This document shows, one piece after another, positions 1 to 7,261 of a DNA stretch of 37,853 bases; positions within the stretch are counted from its first letter, which is position 1, and the number at the start of each line of letters is the position of its first letter. A program made the position numbers and the translations under genes. Below the pieces are notes generated by a model. The model was not told the origin of the DNA and did no database searches. It was given only the letters and a program-made list of their open reading frames with translations. Source of the DNA: a virus; IMG/VR virus record IMGVR_UViG_3300035016_000032, positions 1 through 37,853 of that record; one strand, given 5' to 3'.

Positions 1-108
1 TTCTGCCGGCTCAAGGACTTCAGGCGCATCGCAACCCGCTACGACAAGCTCGCCCGGAACTTCCTCTCAGCCGTCATCCTCGCAACCCTCGTGGCGTTCT
101 GGGTGTGA
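1..108 (+). CDS. IS5-family transposase, C-terminal 35 residues
   Basis: Reading from base 1 in frame gives FCRLKDFRRIATRYDKLARN and then a hydrophobic tail ending LVAFWV before TGA at 106-108. The RLK-FRRIATRYDKLA-NF motif is the characteristic end of IS5-group DDE transposases, just after the last catalytic region, so these proteins cut and paste or copy the element. Only the C-terminus is present because the window starts inside the gene. Whether the full element is intact cannot be seen. It is transcribed opposite to the gene it interrupts. Confidence 0.85.
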   Translation, partial: FCRLKDFRRIATRYDKLARNFLSAVILATLVAFWV

Positions 109-121
109 TTGAGTCTCAGCC
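1..121 (+). mobile_element. Right end of an IS5-family insertion sequence
   Basis: The first 108 bases encode the C-terminus of an IS5-type transposase, and the bases after its stop read TTGAGTCTCAGCC (109-121), which looks like a terminal inverted repeat. The left end lies outside the window, so the repeat cannot be paired and the boundary is good to a few bases only. The insertion lies over the 3' end of the minus-strand gene at 39-626 and replaces its native C-terminus. Confidence 0.7.
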
Positions 122-626
122 GTAGTATCGTCGCTCCACACTCGTTTACAGTGGGCGCGACGATATGGTCGTTTATCAGTCGGTTGATCTCAACGTGTCG
201 AAGTTCGCCCAACTGAGGATATATGGTCATCATGAACTCGTATTCAGTTCTCGCCAGCAGGACAACGAAGAGCTCTTGAGCCGAGACGTATAGCGACCAC
301 CTCTCAAGCAATTTCGCGAACTGCTCTTTCATCTCCATTGCAAATAGTAGTTCGTACTCTCTCCCGGAGTGATGCAACTTAGCCTCAAGTCCAGCGACCC
401 CGTCCGGTGCTTGCTTACGGTAGTAGCGCTGGAGCTGGTCGATCGTGTGCTGGATTTGCGCGCGACGATCGATTTCAACCTGCAAGTTGGCGAGCAGCCG
501 CTCTACTACTGATAGGACCCGCTCGCGGCTGTGTATGACGGTGACTTTGTCTCGCCCGACAATGTCCCCGTCAGCCTGCGCTCCGGTCTGATCGACGCCG
601 GGATGCAAGATAAGGGAGCCTGGCAA
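39..626 (-). CDS. ABC-three-component-system-like protein, C-terminus replaced by an IS
   Basis: From a TTG at 626 with AAGGT about ten bases upstream, this reads 195 residues. Residues 12-28 carry the tag DQTGAQADGDIVGRDKV, followed by a helical domain (about 35-168) with ERWSLYVSAQELFVVLLAR and ending near TVNECG. This arrangement matches, from memory, proteins annotated as components of ABC-three-component (ABC-3C) conflict systems. Residues from about 169 to 195 are encoded by the IS5 end, so the native tail, perhaps 20-30 residues, is missing. A longer reading from 716 would overlap the upstream gene by 86 bases and is less likely. No ABC ATPase partner is in the window. It follows the membrane protein at 631-807 with a 4-base gap, so the two are probably co-transcribed. 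Confidence 0.65.
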   Translation of the reverse strand: MPGSLILHPGVDQTGAQADGDIVGRDKVTVIHSRERVLSVVERLLANLQVEIDRRAQIQHTIDQLQRYYRKQAPDGVAGLEAKLHHSGREYELLFAMEMKEQFAKLLERWSLYVSAQELFVVLLARTEYEFMMTIYPQLGELRHVEINRLINDHIVAPTVNECGATILRLRLNHTQNATRVARMTAERKFRASLS

Positions 627-630
627 CCAG

Positions 631-807
631 CTACTTACCTTGCCGCGTAGACTTGTTCCCCCCGACAATGTCGCCGCCCGACCGTGCACGGCTCTGATCG
701 ACGACGCTGCCGTCACCTCGAACCTTGTTTCGGGTGAATGCGATCGTGACCAACGCCCCGCCGCAAAAGCCTACAAGCAGGCTGATTACTTCCGATAGAT
801 ACTCCAC
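631..807 (-). CDS. Small membrane protein with a GGDIVGG tag
   Basis: This 58-residue protein has one membrane segment (about 5-25, SEVISLLVGFCGGALVTIAF) and a C-terminal tag, DQSRARSGGDIVGGNKS (37-53). The tag closely resembles the one at the start of the next gene. The GTG start at 807 is chosen because GGGAGG lies six to seven bases upstream; an upstream ATG at 846 has no such site. The shared tag and the operon arrangement suggest that the two products act together at the inner membrane. The function is not known. Confidence 0.6.
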   Translation of the reverse strand: MEYLSEVISLLVGFCGGALVTIAFTRNKVRGDGSVVDQSRARSGGDIVGGNKSTRQGK

Positions 808-3428: not shown

Positions 3429-3659
3429 ATGGCAGTCGATTTCGATAAGCTGGAACGCGATCTCACTGAAAAGGAGATGGCCCTCTTCATGGGTGTGACC
3501 ATGGCAATGTTCAGCGCCATCGAGGCTGGAGCCAATGCTCGGAACCTTCATCAGCGTCTCCAAACGCACGTCGACAACTTCGGTGTCCGCAGACAAGCTG
3601 ACGCAAAGCACGTGATGGAAGCTTTCCAAGCCATGGTGCAAAGCACTTTGCCTAAGTGA
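3429..3659 (+). CDS. Small hypothetical protein
   Basis: This 76-residue, mostly helical protein (FDKLERDLTEKEMALFMGV, then a second helix near the C-terminus, KHVMEAFQAMVQ) has no recognised family. GAAAGGA lies upstream of the ATG at 3429. It is the last plus-strand gene of the accessory block and is convergent with the tail chaperone gene ending at 3671. Confidence 0.55.
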   Translation: MAVDFDKLERDLTEKEMALFMGVTMAMFSAIEAGANARNLHQRLQTHVDNFGVRRQADAKHVMEAFQAMVQSTLPK

Positions 3660-3670
3660 GAACACTGCCG

Positions 3671-4051
3671 CTACCTCGCGCCGCCGTCCTGTGATCGGGC
3701 TCGCGCTACTTCCTGCTCCTCAGCCGCAGCACCACGATAGGCAGCGTCCATCGCCAGCAAAACGCGGACCTCTTCTCGCCGCACGATCTCGCCGGTAAGC
3801 GCGGTCCAGCTCGCGATCTCAGAGAAAGTGATGGGCTCCGGTCCTGAGAAGCCCTGCCCCCGAACTGCGCTGAGCTGCCAAAACCATTCCCAGAGGTGCG
3901 CCCAGTGCTCTTCGACTTCCACGGTCGGGCTGACCTCGGGCCGGCCGAACCGCTCGTTCCGCTGGCGCCGGGTCTCTCCGTTCTCGTCCTTGGTGTCGTA
4001 CCGGACGGTCAGCGCGACCGCTTGGCAGCAGGCGTCGGCGGTGCGCTCGTA
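3671..4051 (-). CDS. Tail assembly chaperone T domain, made as a G-T frameshift fusion
   Basis: This frame has no good start of its own. It joins the upstream G gene at the slippery site 4051-4057: after a -1 slip reading resumes at TAC (4051-4049) as YERTADACCQAVALTVRYD and runs 126 residues to TAG at 3671. The full G-T fusion would be 250 residues. The T part includes HLWEWFWQLSAVRGQGFSGP, typical of lambda gpT-like domains that bind the tape measure and recruit tail tube subunits. Annotation pipelines would call only the part from the GTG at 3922 (83 residues). Confidence 0.8.
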   Translation of the reverse strand, partial: YERTADACCQAVALTVRYDTKDENGETRRQRNERFGRPEVSPTVEVEEHWAHLWEWFWQLSAVRGQGFSGPEPITFSEIASWTALTGEIVRREEVRVLLAMDAAYRGAAAEEQEVARARSQDGGAR

Positions 4052-4422
4052 AAATTTGCGAGCTTGTTCGCCGCCTCACTCACCTGGGCATAGATCCAGT
4101 CCTCCCGCTCCAGGATGGCCAAAGCCTTCTTGAAGGAGAACTCCGGCTTTTCACCCTGGTAGGTGTGCTCGCCCCAGTCCCACGAGGCGATCCAGGACGC
4201 GGCCTTCTCCAGCTCCTGCCGCAGTCGCATCTCGCCCTTGACGAGCTTGCCGCGCTGCTGGCGTTCCGTGACCTCGTCGACATGCTTGCGGAGAACCCGC
4301 TTGGCCTCGTCGCTGGAGGCCGAGCGGATCTGAAAGGTGATGCCAAGAGGCTCTTCCGTGTCGGGGCGCGTGAGCTCCAGCGGGAAGAGCGTCTCGTAGT
4401 TGTAGATGCCGGCGATATCCAT
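4009..4422 (-). CDS. Tail assembly chaperone G
   Basis: The 137-residue protein starts MDIAGIYNYETLFPLELTRP and is mostly helical after residue 40, as expected for lambda gpG-like chaperones that coat the tape measure protein during tail assembly. It lies directly downstream of the tail tube gene. Most ribosomes should end at 4009; a minority should slip at codon 124 into the T frame. The last 13 residues (TSAPPTPAAKRSR) are specific to the unshifted product. Confidence 0.8.
   Translation of the reverse strand: MDIAGIYNYETLFPLELTRPDTEEPLGITFQIRSASSDEAKRVLRKHVDEVTERQQRGKLVKGEMRLRQELEKAASWIASWDWGEHTYQGEKPEFSFKKALAILEREDWIYAQVSEAANKLANFTSAPPTPAAKRSR
4051..4057 (-). other. Programmed -1 ribosomal frameshift site (A AAT TTT)
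   Basis: Read on the minus strand in the G frame, the codons are GCA AAT TTT ACG, so the heptamer A AAT TTT fits the X XXY YYZ rule exactly. Three bases downstream, AGCGCACCGC can pair with GCGGTCGCGCT through one bulged C, giving a stimulatory stem of ten pairs around the G stop region. The -1 frame stays open to 3671. This is the conserved G/G-T arrangement known from lambda and many other long-tailed phages. Confidence 0.85.
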
Positions 4423-4430
4423 GGGCGCTC

Positions 4431-4928
4431 TCAGATTGCCGTCGGGTTGACGACGATTTCCTTCTGGACCAGCCCAAGCGTGAAGATCTCGAGGATGAAG
4501 TCCTCATTGCGCCCGCCCGGCCGGCGCGGGCCAGTGACGAGCCCGCGGTTGTAGTAGATCGAGTTGGTAGAGTTCGCGTCGGGCGCGTCCGCATCCTCGA
4601 TCTTGAAGGCGTAGTTGAACTTGGTCGCCGCCGCGGCGCGCATGGCGATCTGGCCGGGATCGGTGGGGTTGCGGGCGCATTCGATGTCGGGATCACCGGC
4701 GTTCGAGATGCCTTTGCCCTTCTGGGTGACGTCCGTTCCGAGCTCGTCATAGGAGACGGTGTTGGTCTGCGTGCCGCGATCACCAACCATGCCGACGTTC
4801 TTCACCTCGGTCCAAAGCAGAGCCGCATAGGCAGACCCGGTGAGATCGGTAGGCTGGGCGAGGGGAATGGGGCCGCCTGCCACGGTGCAAGCGATGTAGA
4901 CCTTCCGGCCTGCATTGGTCTGAGCCAT
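4431..4928 (-). CDS. Major tail tube protein
   Basis: The 165-residue product (MAQTNAGRKVYIACTVAGGP, then KNVGMVGDRGTQTNTVSYDE) resembles siphovirus tail tube subunits, which polymerise into the tail shaft. It sits just before the G/G-T chaperone genes and after the tail terminator gene, the usual place for this gene. Length and the mixed beta-rich character fit the tube fold. Motif-level recognition rather than a close named homologue supports the call. Confidence 0.75.
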   Translation of the reverse strand: MAQTNAGRKVYIACTVAGGPIPLAQPTDLTGSAYAALLWTEVKNVGMVGDRGTQTNTVSYDELGTDVTQKGKGISNAGDPDIECARNPTDPGQIAMRAAAATKFNYAFKIEDADAPDANSTNSIYYNRGLVTGPRRPGGRNEDFILEIFTLGLVQKEIVVNPTAI

Positions 4929-4931
4929 CGA

Positions 4932-5168
4932 TCAGCCCTCCTTCTTGGCTTCGGCCGCGGCGGCCTTCTTGGCTTCGGGCATGTCGGACAGCGGCACGAC
5001 CTTAGCGCCAGCATCCTCATAGGCGGCTTGAAGCGCGGGATAGTCGCCGTTCAGATAGACCTTCTTCACGCCCGGCTCGGGGGTAACGAAGAAGATCGGG
5101 TTGAGCGCTCGGCGCCCGCCTTTGTCGGGCACAGGCGTCGTCGAGTAGATGATCTCGTTTTCCACCAT
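4932..5168 (-). CDS. Small tail-region protein, unknown
   Basis: This 78-residue protein has a beta-like N-terminal half (NPIFFVTPEPGVKKVYL) and a Lys/Ala-rich C-terminal tail (EAKKAAAAEAKKEG). It lies between the tail terminator and tail tube genes with only three bases before the tube gene, so it is part of the late operon. No family is recognised; a tail-tube accessory or assembly role is inferred from position only. Confidence 0.6.
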   Translation of the reverse strand: MVENEIIYSTTPVPDKGGRRALNPIFFVTPEPGVKKVYLNGDYPALQAAYEDAGAKVVPLSDMPEAKKAAAAEAKKEG

Positions 5169-5178
5169 GGGTCAGCTC

Positions 5179-5595
5179 CTAAGCGAAGGCTTGATACGGA
5201 ATAGAGACAGGCACCCTCTTCCGGCCGTCATCGAGCAGCGGTGGGGCGACGGAGGGTTTGGCGGTGATCCTCACCCGCACCCCGTCTTTCTCGACGGTGG
5301 TTCCCTTGGCGAAGTGGGCGACGATCCGGCCGGCGATGTCGTTGAGCGCCACGACTTGCTCTTTCGGGGCCCCGACAACCGTCACCTGGAGCAGCCCGAC
5401 ATGCTGCGTCGGATCCGAGTTGCCCAGGAACAGGTTCCGGTTCGTGTTCGGCAGGAACGTCAGCTCGAGATACGCCCCGGCCGGTGGCGTGAACGGCTTG
5501 CCAGGCCAAGCGATGGGCAGGGCCGGCGAGAGTGTCAGAGTGTCCAGGTGCCGGAACAGCGCGTCAGGAATGGCGGCTTCCGCCGTGAGCGGCAT
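5179..5595 (-). CDS. Tail terminator protein
   Basis: The 138-residue product (PIAWPGKPFTPPAGAYLELT, later DIAGRIVAHFAKGTTVEKDG) matches the DUF4128/lambda gpU-like tail terminator pattern: an N-terminal 'P-AWPG--F-PP-G-YLE' segment and a strand-helix domain. These proteins cap the finished tail tube and join it to the head. The order gp10-like protein, terminator, tube is standard for this phage type. Confidence 0.75.
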   Translation of the reverse strand: MPLTAEAAIPDALFRHLDTLTLSPALPIAWPGKPFTPPAGAYLELTFLPNTNRNLFLGNSDPTQHVGLLQVTVVGAPKEQVVALNDIAGRIVAHFAKGTTVEKDGVRVRITAKPSVAPPLLDDGRKRVPVSIPYQAFA

Positions 5596-5612
5596 GTGCT
5601 ATTCCTTCGCTC

Positions 5613-5828
5613 GTGAACGACAATGAACCGCTATCCGACAACCAAGCCGGCGATCTTCTCTATGCCGTGCTCGAGATGCTCGGCACCGCGCCTGGCGCTA
5701 CAGTCCGCGCCGATGCGGCCCTGAAAGCCGCCCGGCGTTCCATTTGGCTGCTTCAGCTCGGGCTCTTGATGGCGAGTGAGCGCGGCGAGGATGACGTGCC
5801 GGGGATTACGCCCCGGAACGGGCCTTAG
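5613..5828 (+). CDS. Small helical protein on the opposite strand, unknown
   Basis: A 71-residue plus-strand ORF starting at GTG 5613 fills the 210-base gap between two minus-strand structural genes. Its sequence (LSDNQAGDLLYAVLEMLGTA, then KAARRSIWLLQLGLLMASER) is a plausible helical protein. No clear ribosome-binding site is seen. Its 3' end overlaps the gp10-like gene by 23 bases. It is probably a small accessory gene inserted in the head-tail joining cluster. Confidence 0.45.
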   Translation: MNDNEPLSDNQAGDLLYAVLEMLGTAPGATVRADAALKAARRSIWLLQLGLLMASERGEDDVPGITPRNGP

Positions 5829-6234
5829 CCGCCGCCACAGCGCGATCCACGTGAACGGGCCAGTTCTGGGCGGCGAGCCTCACCATCGCCCTCCCTGCCC
5901 TTCCCTTGGCCCCGTATTCGACATGCCCGGCATACCCAGCGACGAAGGAGGCGAACACGGTGTCGCCGATCTCAGCGCCGGCAATCGAAAGCGCATAGGG
6001 CTGGACGGTGTATGTCTGTCCTTCCGCCGGCTGGGCATTCTCGCGGATGGGTAATGGCCCGGTTGTCGTGACCGTGAGGCTTGCCCGGAGATAGCCGGTG
6101 TCCACCGGCGTCCGGTCGAGCACATCCTCGACGACGAACTGCGCCGCGGTGCGGAACACGGCGAGCATGCGGACTTCGGTTTCGCGGACCCAGGCATCCA
6201 CCTGGGCTGCAAAGTTGAGCGTGGTGGTCGCCAC
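5806..6234 (-). CDS. HK97 gp10-like head-tail joining protein
   Basis: This 142-residue protein contains VEDVLDRTPVDTGYLRASLT near residues 35-54, the hallmark of HK97 gp10-like proteins, and VAGYAGHVEYGAKGRAGRAM near 98-117, the second conserved segment. These proteins lie at the head-tail junction or help tail completion. It is followed by the tail terminator gene and overlaps by one codon's length with the preceding reading region, as expected in a compact late operon. Confidence 0.8.
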   Translation of the reverse strand: MATTTLNFAAQVDAWVRETEVRMLAVFRTAAQFVVEDVLDRTPVDTGYLRASLTVTTTGPLPIRENAQPAEGQTYTVQPYALSIAGAEIGDTVFASFVAGYAGHVEYGAKGRAGRAMVRLAAQNWPVHVDRAVAAAKARSGA

Positions 6235-6235
6235 G

Positions 6236-7261
6236 TCAGGCCGCTTGTCTCAGCGAAGCGAAATAGTCGATCCGCACCCGTTCGTGGCAGCGGCACATGA
6301 TGTCGATCGAGTGCGGGGCGTGCATGCTCGGCCCCGTTGGGGTGGCGAAAGGCTCTTTCCAGGCCCGGCCGTCCTTATTCATGCCCGGGATCATGCGGTG
6401 CGTTGAGCGCACCCGTTCATCCCGCGCCGTGAACCAGAACTTGCGGATTGAGCCTTCCTGGACGTTCCCGCGCTCGATGGCCTGGTCGTAGGCTTCGGTC
6501 TGTGCGGCGCCCAAGGCTCGGATCGTCTCGTTGCGTGAGATCACGTCGGCTCGGTATTTCAAGGCGCGAGAGGCATAGAGCGTGCGCAGCCTCGCCACCG
6601 TGTCGGCCGGCAGCGGCTTCCCTTCGCGGATGGCCTTCTCGATTGTCCGGTCGAAGCGCTTGTCCCTCAGCCCACGCTTGAGCGCGTTGCGCATCGCCTC
6701 CGGATCGCCGGACGTCAGTTCCTCGGCATAGGCGGCCACCCAGCGCTCCTGCTGGCTTGTAAGGCCTATGATGCCCCCCACCCGCTCGTTGCGTCCTGCG
6801 GGCATCCTACCGGCCAAGTCCAGGGCGACCGTGCGGGGGTTGAGCCCCCTTTCCAGCCCCGACGCCATGCTCTGCCGAATGGCCGTGCGCTGGTCCTCCA
6901 CGATCTCGCGCACAAGGGTTGAAGAGCGTTCCCTGGCCCACTCTTCGGCCCGCGGGTTCCTTACATCGAACCGAAAGCGCACCACGCCCCCAAGCGGCTC
7001 GCGAAGCGCGGGAATCGCCGTTTCCGTGGCCTTTCCACCGGCGTCAAAGCTTTGGGCGATCAGGCTGTCGAGGTCGCGGAAGTCGAGTTCGTCGATCCCC
7101 ACGGCCCTCACCGCGCCCTCGATGTCGCCGCGATCCAGAAGCTGGGCGACGGTTGAAATTTGCACCCGGTTTGCGATCTCGGCCACGGCGCGCAGGAAGG
7201 CATCCCGCAGGCGCGGCTCCCATTCCGCCGTGAGCGCGTCGAAGTCGAGGCCGCGGGCCAT
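6236..7261 (-). CDS. Minor head protein, phage Mu F/SPP1 gp7-like
   Basis: The 341-residue protein ends with the Mu F-like signature: SRNETIRALGAAQTEAYDQA, then KFWFTARDERVRSTHRMIPG and PHSIDIMCRCHERVRIDYF, a conserved Cys/His-containing end. Proteins of this class sit at or near the portal and are often injected or needed for head morphogenesis. In most phages the gene follows the portal gene; here it lies after the connector genes, a mild rearrangement. The N-terminal half is helical without other motifs. Confidence 0.8.
   Translation of the reverse strand: MARGLDFDALTAEWEPRLRDAFLRAVAEIANRVQISTVAQLLDRGDIEGAVRAVGIDELDFRDLDSLIAQSFDAGGKATETAIPALREPLGGVVRFRFDVRNPRAEEWARERSSTLVREIVEDQRTAIRQSMASGLERGLNPRTVALDLAGRMPAGRNERVGGIIGLTSQQERWVAAYAEELTSGDPEAMRNALKRGLRDKRFDRTIEKAIREGKPLPADTVARLRTLYASRALKYRADVISRNETIRALGAAQTEAYDQAIERGNVQEGSIRKFWFTARDERVRSTHRMIPGMNKDGRAWKEPFATPTGPSMHAPHSIDIMCRCHERVRIDYFASLRQAA

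Follow-up and report, generated by a model that had tools for sequence, protein, structure and literature searches.

A Tagged Small Membrane Protein Encoded beside a Tagged LmuA-like Protein: A Probable Four-Gene Variant of Lamassu/ABC-3C

The stretch of DNA analyzed here (the window) is the whole of IMG/VR virus entry IMGVR_UViG_3300035016_000032 (37,853 bases), which encodes a terminase, a portal, a major head protein, a DnaB-like helicase, and, at its right end, an integrase; its late genes lie on the minus strand and head toward the left end. At that end are the genes for a small membrane protein and for a soluble protein with the ABC-3C domain CTD9, the latter running into the end of an insertion sequence (IS; Table 1). 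The small-protein frame is open from 631 to 846 (with a TTG at 846), and the GTG start lies behind a GGGAGG-type site and gives the product VEYLSEV...GGDIVGGNKSTRQGK; the small protein of a relative (locus L060) has a homologous start as well as a transmembrane helix. The CTD9 frame is open from 39 to 716. A sequence-only reading of this DNA had claimed that the 58-residue membrane protein ends, and that the next protein begins, with a similar tag, and both frames and both tags were confirmed.

Table 1. Features at the left end of the window
Feature	Position	Strand	Basis or remark
End of IS5-family element	1..122	+	Transposase frame C-terminal end at 1-108; record ends in element
CTD9 (LmuA-like) protein, 189 aa as now encoded	39..608	-	TTG start (608) likely; native only 123-608
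CTD9 Pfam domain, native part	123..392	-	Pfam match continues to residue 202 of open frame
N-terminal tag VDQTGAQADGDIVGRDKVT of CTD9 protein	540..596	-	Sequence
Gene for the small tagged membrane protein (58 aa, GTG start at 807)	631..807	-	Reading frame; homologous start in L060
C-terminal tag VDQSRARSGGDIVGGNKS of small protein	649..702	-	Sequence
One glycine-rich hydrophobic stretch (19 residues) with GxxxG-like spacing	733..789	-	Hydrophobicity, residue spacing
Tail tape measure protein, N-terminal 140 aa	926..1348	-	Comparison with relatives

Residues 198–225 of the CTD9 frame are matched on several rhizobial plasmids by IS5-family copies read in antisense, and the aligned ends of three copies (L115–L117) place the IS end at about position 122. 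These matches bear out the earlier claim that an IS5 insertion has replaced the native C-terminus: 162 codons of the frame are native, about 28 are IS-derived (antisense of the transposase), and the operon in the window is broken by the insertion. On the other side of the pair, the tape measure protein has 140 residues versus 704–940 in its relatives (14 examined of 24 found), implying that phage homology ends between the tape measure gene and the operon. This is probably a defective prophage that meets foreign DNA at the truncated tape measure gene. Farther into the late region, two neighboring repressor-like genes on the plus strand (2124–2720) interrupt the run of minus-strand genes; both match phrog_4738, the second through a C-terminal domain that follows a helix-turn-helix. 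At 3671–4422 (minus strand) lie two tail assembly chaperone frames whose overlap resembles that of a programmed frameshift.

The soluble protein matches CTD9 (PF20285; Pfam, E 8.1e-20), as expected from the earlier assignment of an ABC-3C-like helical domain, and also phrog_13193 (E 1.1e-14). The predicted fold of CTD9 is LmuA-like: with the L015 relative modeled by AlphaFold2 (mean pLDDT 78, pTM 0.71), the nine best solved structures are all LmuA, with Z 9.1–10.0, a level that for a helical domain the structure-comparison tool itself calls not decisive, and the next best has Z 4.1. The alignments of this model with LmuA start at residues 34–67 and end at 183–188, all involving the LmuA C-terminal region; with Foldseek, the same model reaches LmuA only at weak E-values (lowest 0.34). 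PADLOC matched LmuA over the length of the L053 protein, which carries a fused N-terminal domain in front of CTD9 (2.4e-5). The PADLOC LmuA models did not recognize the tagged CTD9 proteins, and PADLOC found neither of the window proteins. Searches of PDB sequences gave no match for LmuB (phmmer) and only two chance-like matches for the CTD9 profile. A reading as a phage gene was set aside, since neither P0001 nor its relative P0004 has a match among 50,697 phage records, although the IMG/VR records L034 and L109 hold complete operons.

We tabulated 42 CTD9 loci, of which 34 (window included) have an N-terminal tag, 5 have a fused domain, and 3 have neither; these classes were assigned by hand, and a Fisher test on them was not counted as evidence. 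The loci come from plasmid records, one bacterial genome scan (19 loci), IMG/VR (2 loci), and whole-genome Pfam searches. Matches over the Pfam cut-off occurred in 4 of 385, 5 of 397, 5 of 398, 2 of 369, and 8 of 394 genomes (the draws overlap in part), so the operon is rare and scattered. Dropped before counting were L032/L078 (one degenerate copy), L063 (match under the Pfam cut-off), L079 (CTD9 profile match absent), and the duplicates L033, L073, and L075, and L057, which the core profile missed, was placed by separate inspection.

The tagged pair co-occurs regularly in other genomes, and in 32 of the 34 tagged loci it is followed by the ABC-3C middle component 5 (MC5) and a LmuB-like ATPase, as in L008 (MC5, PF20291, 8e-44; LmuB, PDLC03863, 1.7e-40). 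The same two genes follow CTD9 in all five fused-domain loci and in all three untagged loci. MC5 is matched in 33 of 34 tagged loci, one match being a remnant only; the two exceptions to the MC5-LmuB arrangement are the window, whose record ends in the IS, and L010, which is broken and retains just the MC5 remnant. The operon order is thus small tagged membrane protein, tagged CTD9 protein (LmuA), MC5 (LmuC), and SMC-like ATPase (LmuB). Ensifer adhaerens Corn53 (L009) has all four genes intact. The sequence-only reading had seen no ATPase nearby and proposed an orphan or new two-gene arrangement. The window indeed has no ATPase beside the pair, but its record ends inside the IS, and with MC5 and LmuB present in nearly all tagged relatives a two-gene system is extremely unlikely; the window pair makes up the 5′ half of a Lamassu/ABC-3C operon of four genes. 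A 43-kb IMG/VR record (L109) holds a complete four-gene tagged operon at 3636–6878, adjoining an antirepressor-like gene; this operon, a prophage-borne copy, is not counted among the 34.

The small proteins of the relatives have 50–111 residues and one hydrophobic segment, preceded mostly by acidic or uncharged residues and followed by lysines and arginines. Positively charged residues flank the cytosolic side of a membrane helix (the positive-inside rule), and the C-terminus of the small protein, with its tag, is accordingly predicted to be cytosolic. Glycine spacing by four favors helix packing; small-xxx-small-xxx-small patterns occur 73 times in the helices of 31 segments versus 17.1 (SD 4.0) in shuffles, a statistic that is descriptive only because the segments are related. 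No known domain was found in the small protein by Pfam.

In each locus the small gene was chosen as the best short open reading frame (ORF) by hydrophobicity alone, ending 60–235 bases before the CTD9 core, limits narrowed from an initial range of 330–20 bases that had picked a spurious upstream ORF in L009, L013, and L034. An ORF with a mean Kyte-Doolittle value of at least 1.1 was obtained in 32 of 34 tagged loci; 31 of these ORFs terminate in a tag, and the remaining one (L010) is frameshifted. The selection rule does not capture the tagged ORF of L012 or that of L059. For L010 (frameshifted), L012 (CTD9 frameshifted), and L059 (contig edge), three of the 34, the small gene was assessed by visual inspection. 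The same rule yielded no small hydrophobic protein in the eight loci without a tag (0/8), and a plasmid search with the L011 small protein returned four records, all of them CTD9 operon records.

When the window is read in all six frames, GDIVG[GR][ND]K occurs twice, both times at the tag sites, versus 0.0 per codon-shuffled window, and GDIVG alone occurs 2 times versus 0.025 per codon-shuffled window. Across 13 genomes, a degenerate tag pattern gave 11 matches in 7 genomes, 11/11 of them at the operon, while the reversed pattern gave 0. In IMG/VR the tag pattern is found in 11 contigs, of which 3 hold this operon, 2 a fiber-like protein, and 6 one large-phage protein family. A generic low-complexity motif is ruled out by the confinement to the operon in the 13 genomes together with the small number of IMG/VR contigs. 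The fiber-like protein carries GDIVGSDK, is unrelated, and is taken as a chance occurrence.

Tag types differ between loci and match within a locus: in L013 both proteins carry GDQAGRD, and other within-locus tags are AGRDN (L056), AGGHIA (L058), GHM.GRDVNV (L059), VR.G.DTN (L061), and GDKYV (L072). Pair-private tags are found in L013, L056, L058, L059, L061, L072, and L076. With the small gene picked by hydrophobicity alone, tag similarity is 59.1 for cognate and 38.9 for non-cognate pairs (17 loci, 0/20,000 permutations); at less than 50% core identity the values are 58.8 and 34.3 (12 loci). Cognate similarity exceeded non-cognate similarity in all 20,000 permutations at each of three redundancy cut-offs (n = 17, 15, and 12). 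A locus's own partner is the best tag match in 8 of 17 loci and ranks second to eleventh in the rest, which is unsurprising as many loci share the GDIVGRDK type. Tag-tag distances remain correlated once the CTD9 core is accounted for (partial r 0.54, 0/5,000), whereas the membrane part of the small protein has no such correlation (partial r 0.12, 943/5,000); the small-protein tags also track core phylogeny (partial r 0.48, 10/5,000). Because of broken genes, the tag tests exclude L010, L012, and L027; the distance-correlation test excludes L029 as well. Indirectly, then, the covariation indicates that the two tags of each operon are likely to pair.

Tags could also be alike merely through copying (a duplication, or gene conversion over the short gap between the genes), with no functional pairing; the two stretches that encode a tag pair look homologous and are no more than about 150 bases apart. 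At identical degenerate tag residues, however, the same codon is used in 124 of 349 cases versus 143.5 expected from local codon usage. This agreement, not above expectation, suggests that the likeness is kept at the protein level and that recent copying or duplication is unlikely. Pair-private tag types also persist across deep divergence, and no tag is present where the partner is absent. Taken with the codon counts, these observations leave copying as a very unlikely account of the matching tags. Structure prediction of tag-tag contacts, a check suggested earlier, showed none: in an AlphaFold2 model of a read-through chain that includes the two tags, both had pLDDT below 50 and were left disordered, a result that is neutral as to a cross-beta amyloid.

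In the tagged variant LmuA has no fused effector, and the N-terminal tag stands at the position of the effector domain. Five CTD9 proteins (L052, L053, L054, L057, and L080) have about 290–330 extra N-terminal residues, with no tag and no small protein in the locus. The three extensions scanned, those of L052, L053, and L057, match the serine esterase model DUF676 (L057 weakly, under the cut-off), and those of L054 and L080 are the same kind of sequence. In L055, L074, and L077, a bare CTD9 protein occurs without a tag or small protein, and a gene for a protein of 224–249 residues lies behind LmuB (L055 7291–8004, L077 7486–8160, and L074 1925–2674). These proteins look like multi-helix membrane proteins, match no Pfam family, and are a candidate second membrane effector; their gene is present in 3/3 untagged, 0/34 tagged, and 0/5 fused loci. 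The effector slot is thus occupied exclusively in the loci tabulated, an exclusivity that rests on only two switches, because on the LmuB tree the three states need two changes. That tree, with 40 rows, unites the fused loci (100/97) and likewise the untagged loci (91/77), the latter beside the tagged L013 (100/100).

The sequence-only reading had proposed that tag pairing brings the soluble domain to the membrane. Its pairing component is indirectly supported by covariation, while a role of the small protein as a mere anchor has become less likely. Were the small protein an anchor or regulator, tag pairing would park the LmuA-like protein, or LmuABC, at the membrane, and the output would lie elsewhere, e.g. 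in ATPase-driven DNA handling. The evidence for tag pairing fits this arrangement equally well, and a protein of so few residues with no known domain would suit it. Against it, the tag occupies the position of the fused esterase-like domain of other CTD9 proteins, the tagged small protein is missing where the esterase-like domain or the other membrane gene exists, and the rest of the CTD9 protein has no other recognized domain able to act. Because a fused N-terminal effector takes the place of the tag in those other proteins, the small protein is more likely a split-off effector than an anchor, and we regard the anchor role as unlikely. Our preferred reading, to which we assign a probability of roughly 0.7, is a four-gene Lamassu/ABC-3C variant in which the N-terminal effector of LmuA has become a separate, tagged membrane effector that is recruited by tag-tag pairing.

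ABC-3C is described as belonging to the Lamassu superfamily with LmuA, LmuC (the middle component), and LmuB; LmuA consists of an N-terminal effector and a variable C-terminal docking domain (PMC10586767). Lamassu effectors are described as LmuA-fused domains. The present operon is similar in that CTD9 is one of Pfam's ABC-3C C-terminal domains and has a predicted LmuA-like fold, and in that MC5 and the LmuB-like ATPase, known from the relatives, follow in the same order. It differs in that a tag replaces the LmuA-fused effector and a separate tagged membrane protein is added as a fourth gene; unlike in classical three-gene Lamassu, only the tag precedes the CTD9 core in tagged loci. The Lamassu nuclease-protease pair is comparable in having an extra gene directly upstream of LmuA that supplies part of the effector function (PMC12799240), but that pair consists of an LmuA with a trypsin-like protease and a nuclease partner, the present one of an LmuA with only a tag and a membrane protein. 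In bacterial amyloid signaling, the C-terminal motifs of Bell proteins match N-terminal motifs of NLRs (PMC8086366, PMC12261475); as in the bacterial amyloid signaling sequences BASS 1–10 of the NLR/Bell proteins, similar short motifs stand here on the C-terminus of a small putative effector and on the N-terminus of the neighboring regulator, a likeness of arrangement. Unlike in the BASS systems, Pfam found no NLR or Bell domain in the proteins scanned, and as amyloid is only conjectural here, we do not assign the operon to BASS. Our literature search found neither a tag or membrane partner in Lamassu/ABC-3C nor the tag strings themselves; mention is possible in the ABC-3C classification (gkaa726) or in two Lamassu structure papers, so that the arrangement is not certain to be unpublished.

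Activation of LmuA-type proteins reportedly occurs through oligomerization (PMC12799240, citing structure work). In the split-effector reading, LmuB and LmuC would hold the CTD9 protein at rest, and the sensing of foreign DNA would release it. The released protein would oligomerize through CTD9, as reported for LmuA, so that its gathered N-terminal tags could contact, pair with, and cluster the tagged membrane protein. The clustered glycine-rich helices may then assemble, possibly as a pore, and damage the membrane, and the spread of a phage or plasmid would stop, as in a defense system.

The extended tag, VNQRGAKASGDIVGGNKYST, is also present in a large-phage protein starting MFGWLFGKKK, encoded at L002 854–952 and in L003–L007 (contigs of up to 282,855 bases), in which it is followed by a Ser/His-rich tail. 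This protein matches phrog_13684 (3e-7), and no CTD9 neighbor was seen in the L002–L007 contigs; it is possibly a decoy or an independent use of the tag. A more speculative and rather doubtful extension of the split-effector reading is that the tag is a self-templating amyloid-like motif of an SMC-type DNA sensor (not an NLR). Released LmuA-like proteins might then seed the tags of the pore protein, operon-specific tags might avoid cross-seeding, and the large-phage tag proteins might be blocking decoys.

Lamassu is a large defense superfamily. If the split-effector reading is correct, recruitment of a separate membrane effector by a short tag would show how effectors can be swapped without protein fusion, with the simple rule that tag identity decides the partner, and it would account for the short CTD9 proteins that defense-finding models miss.
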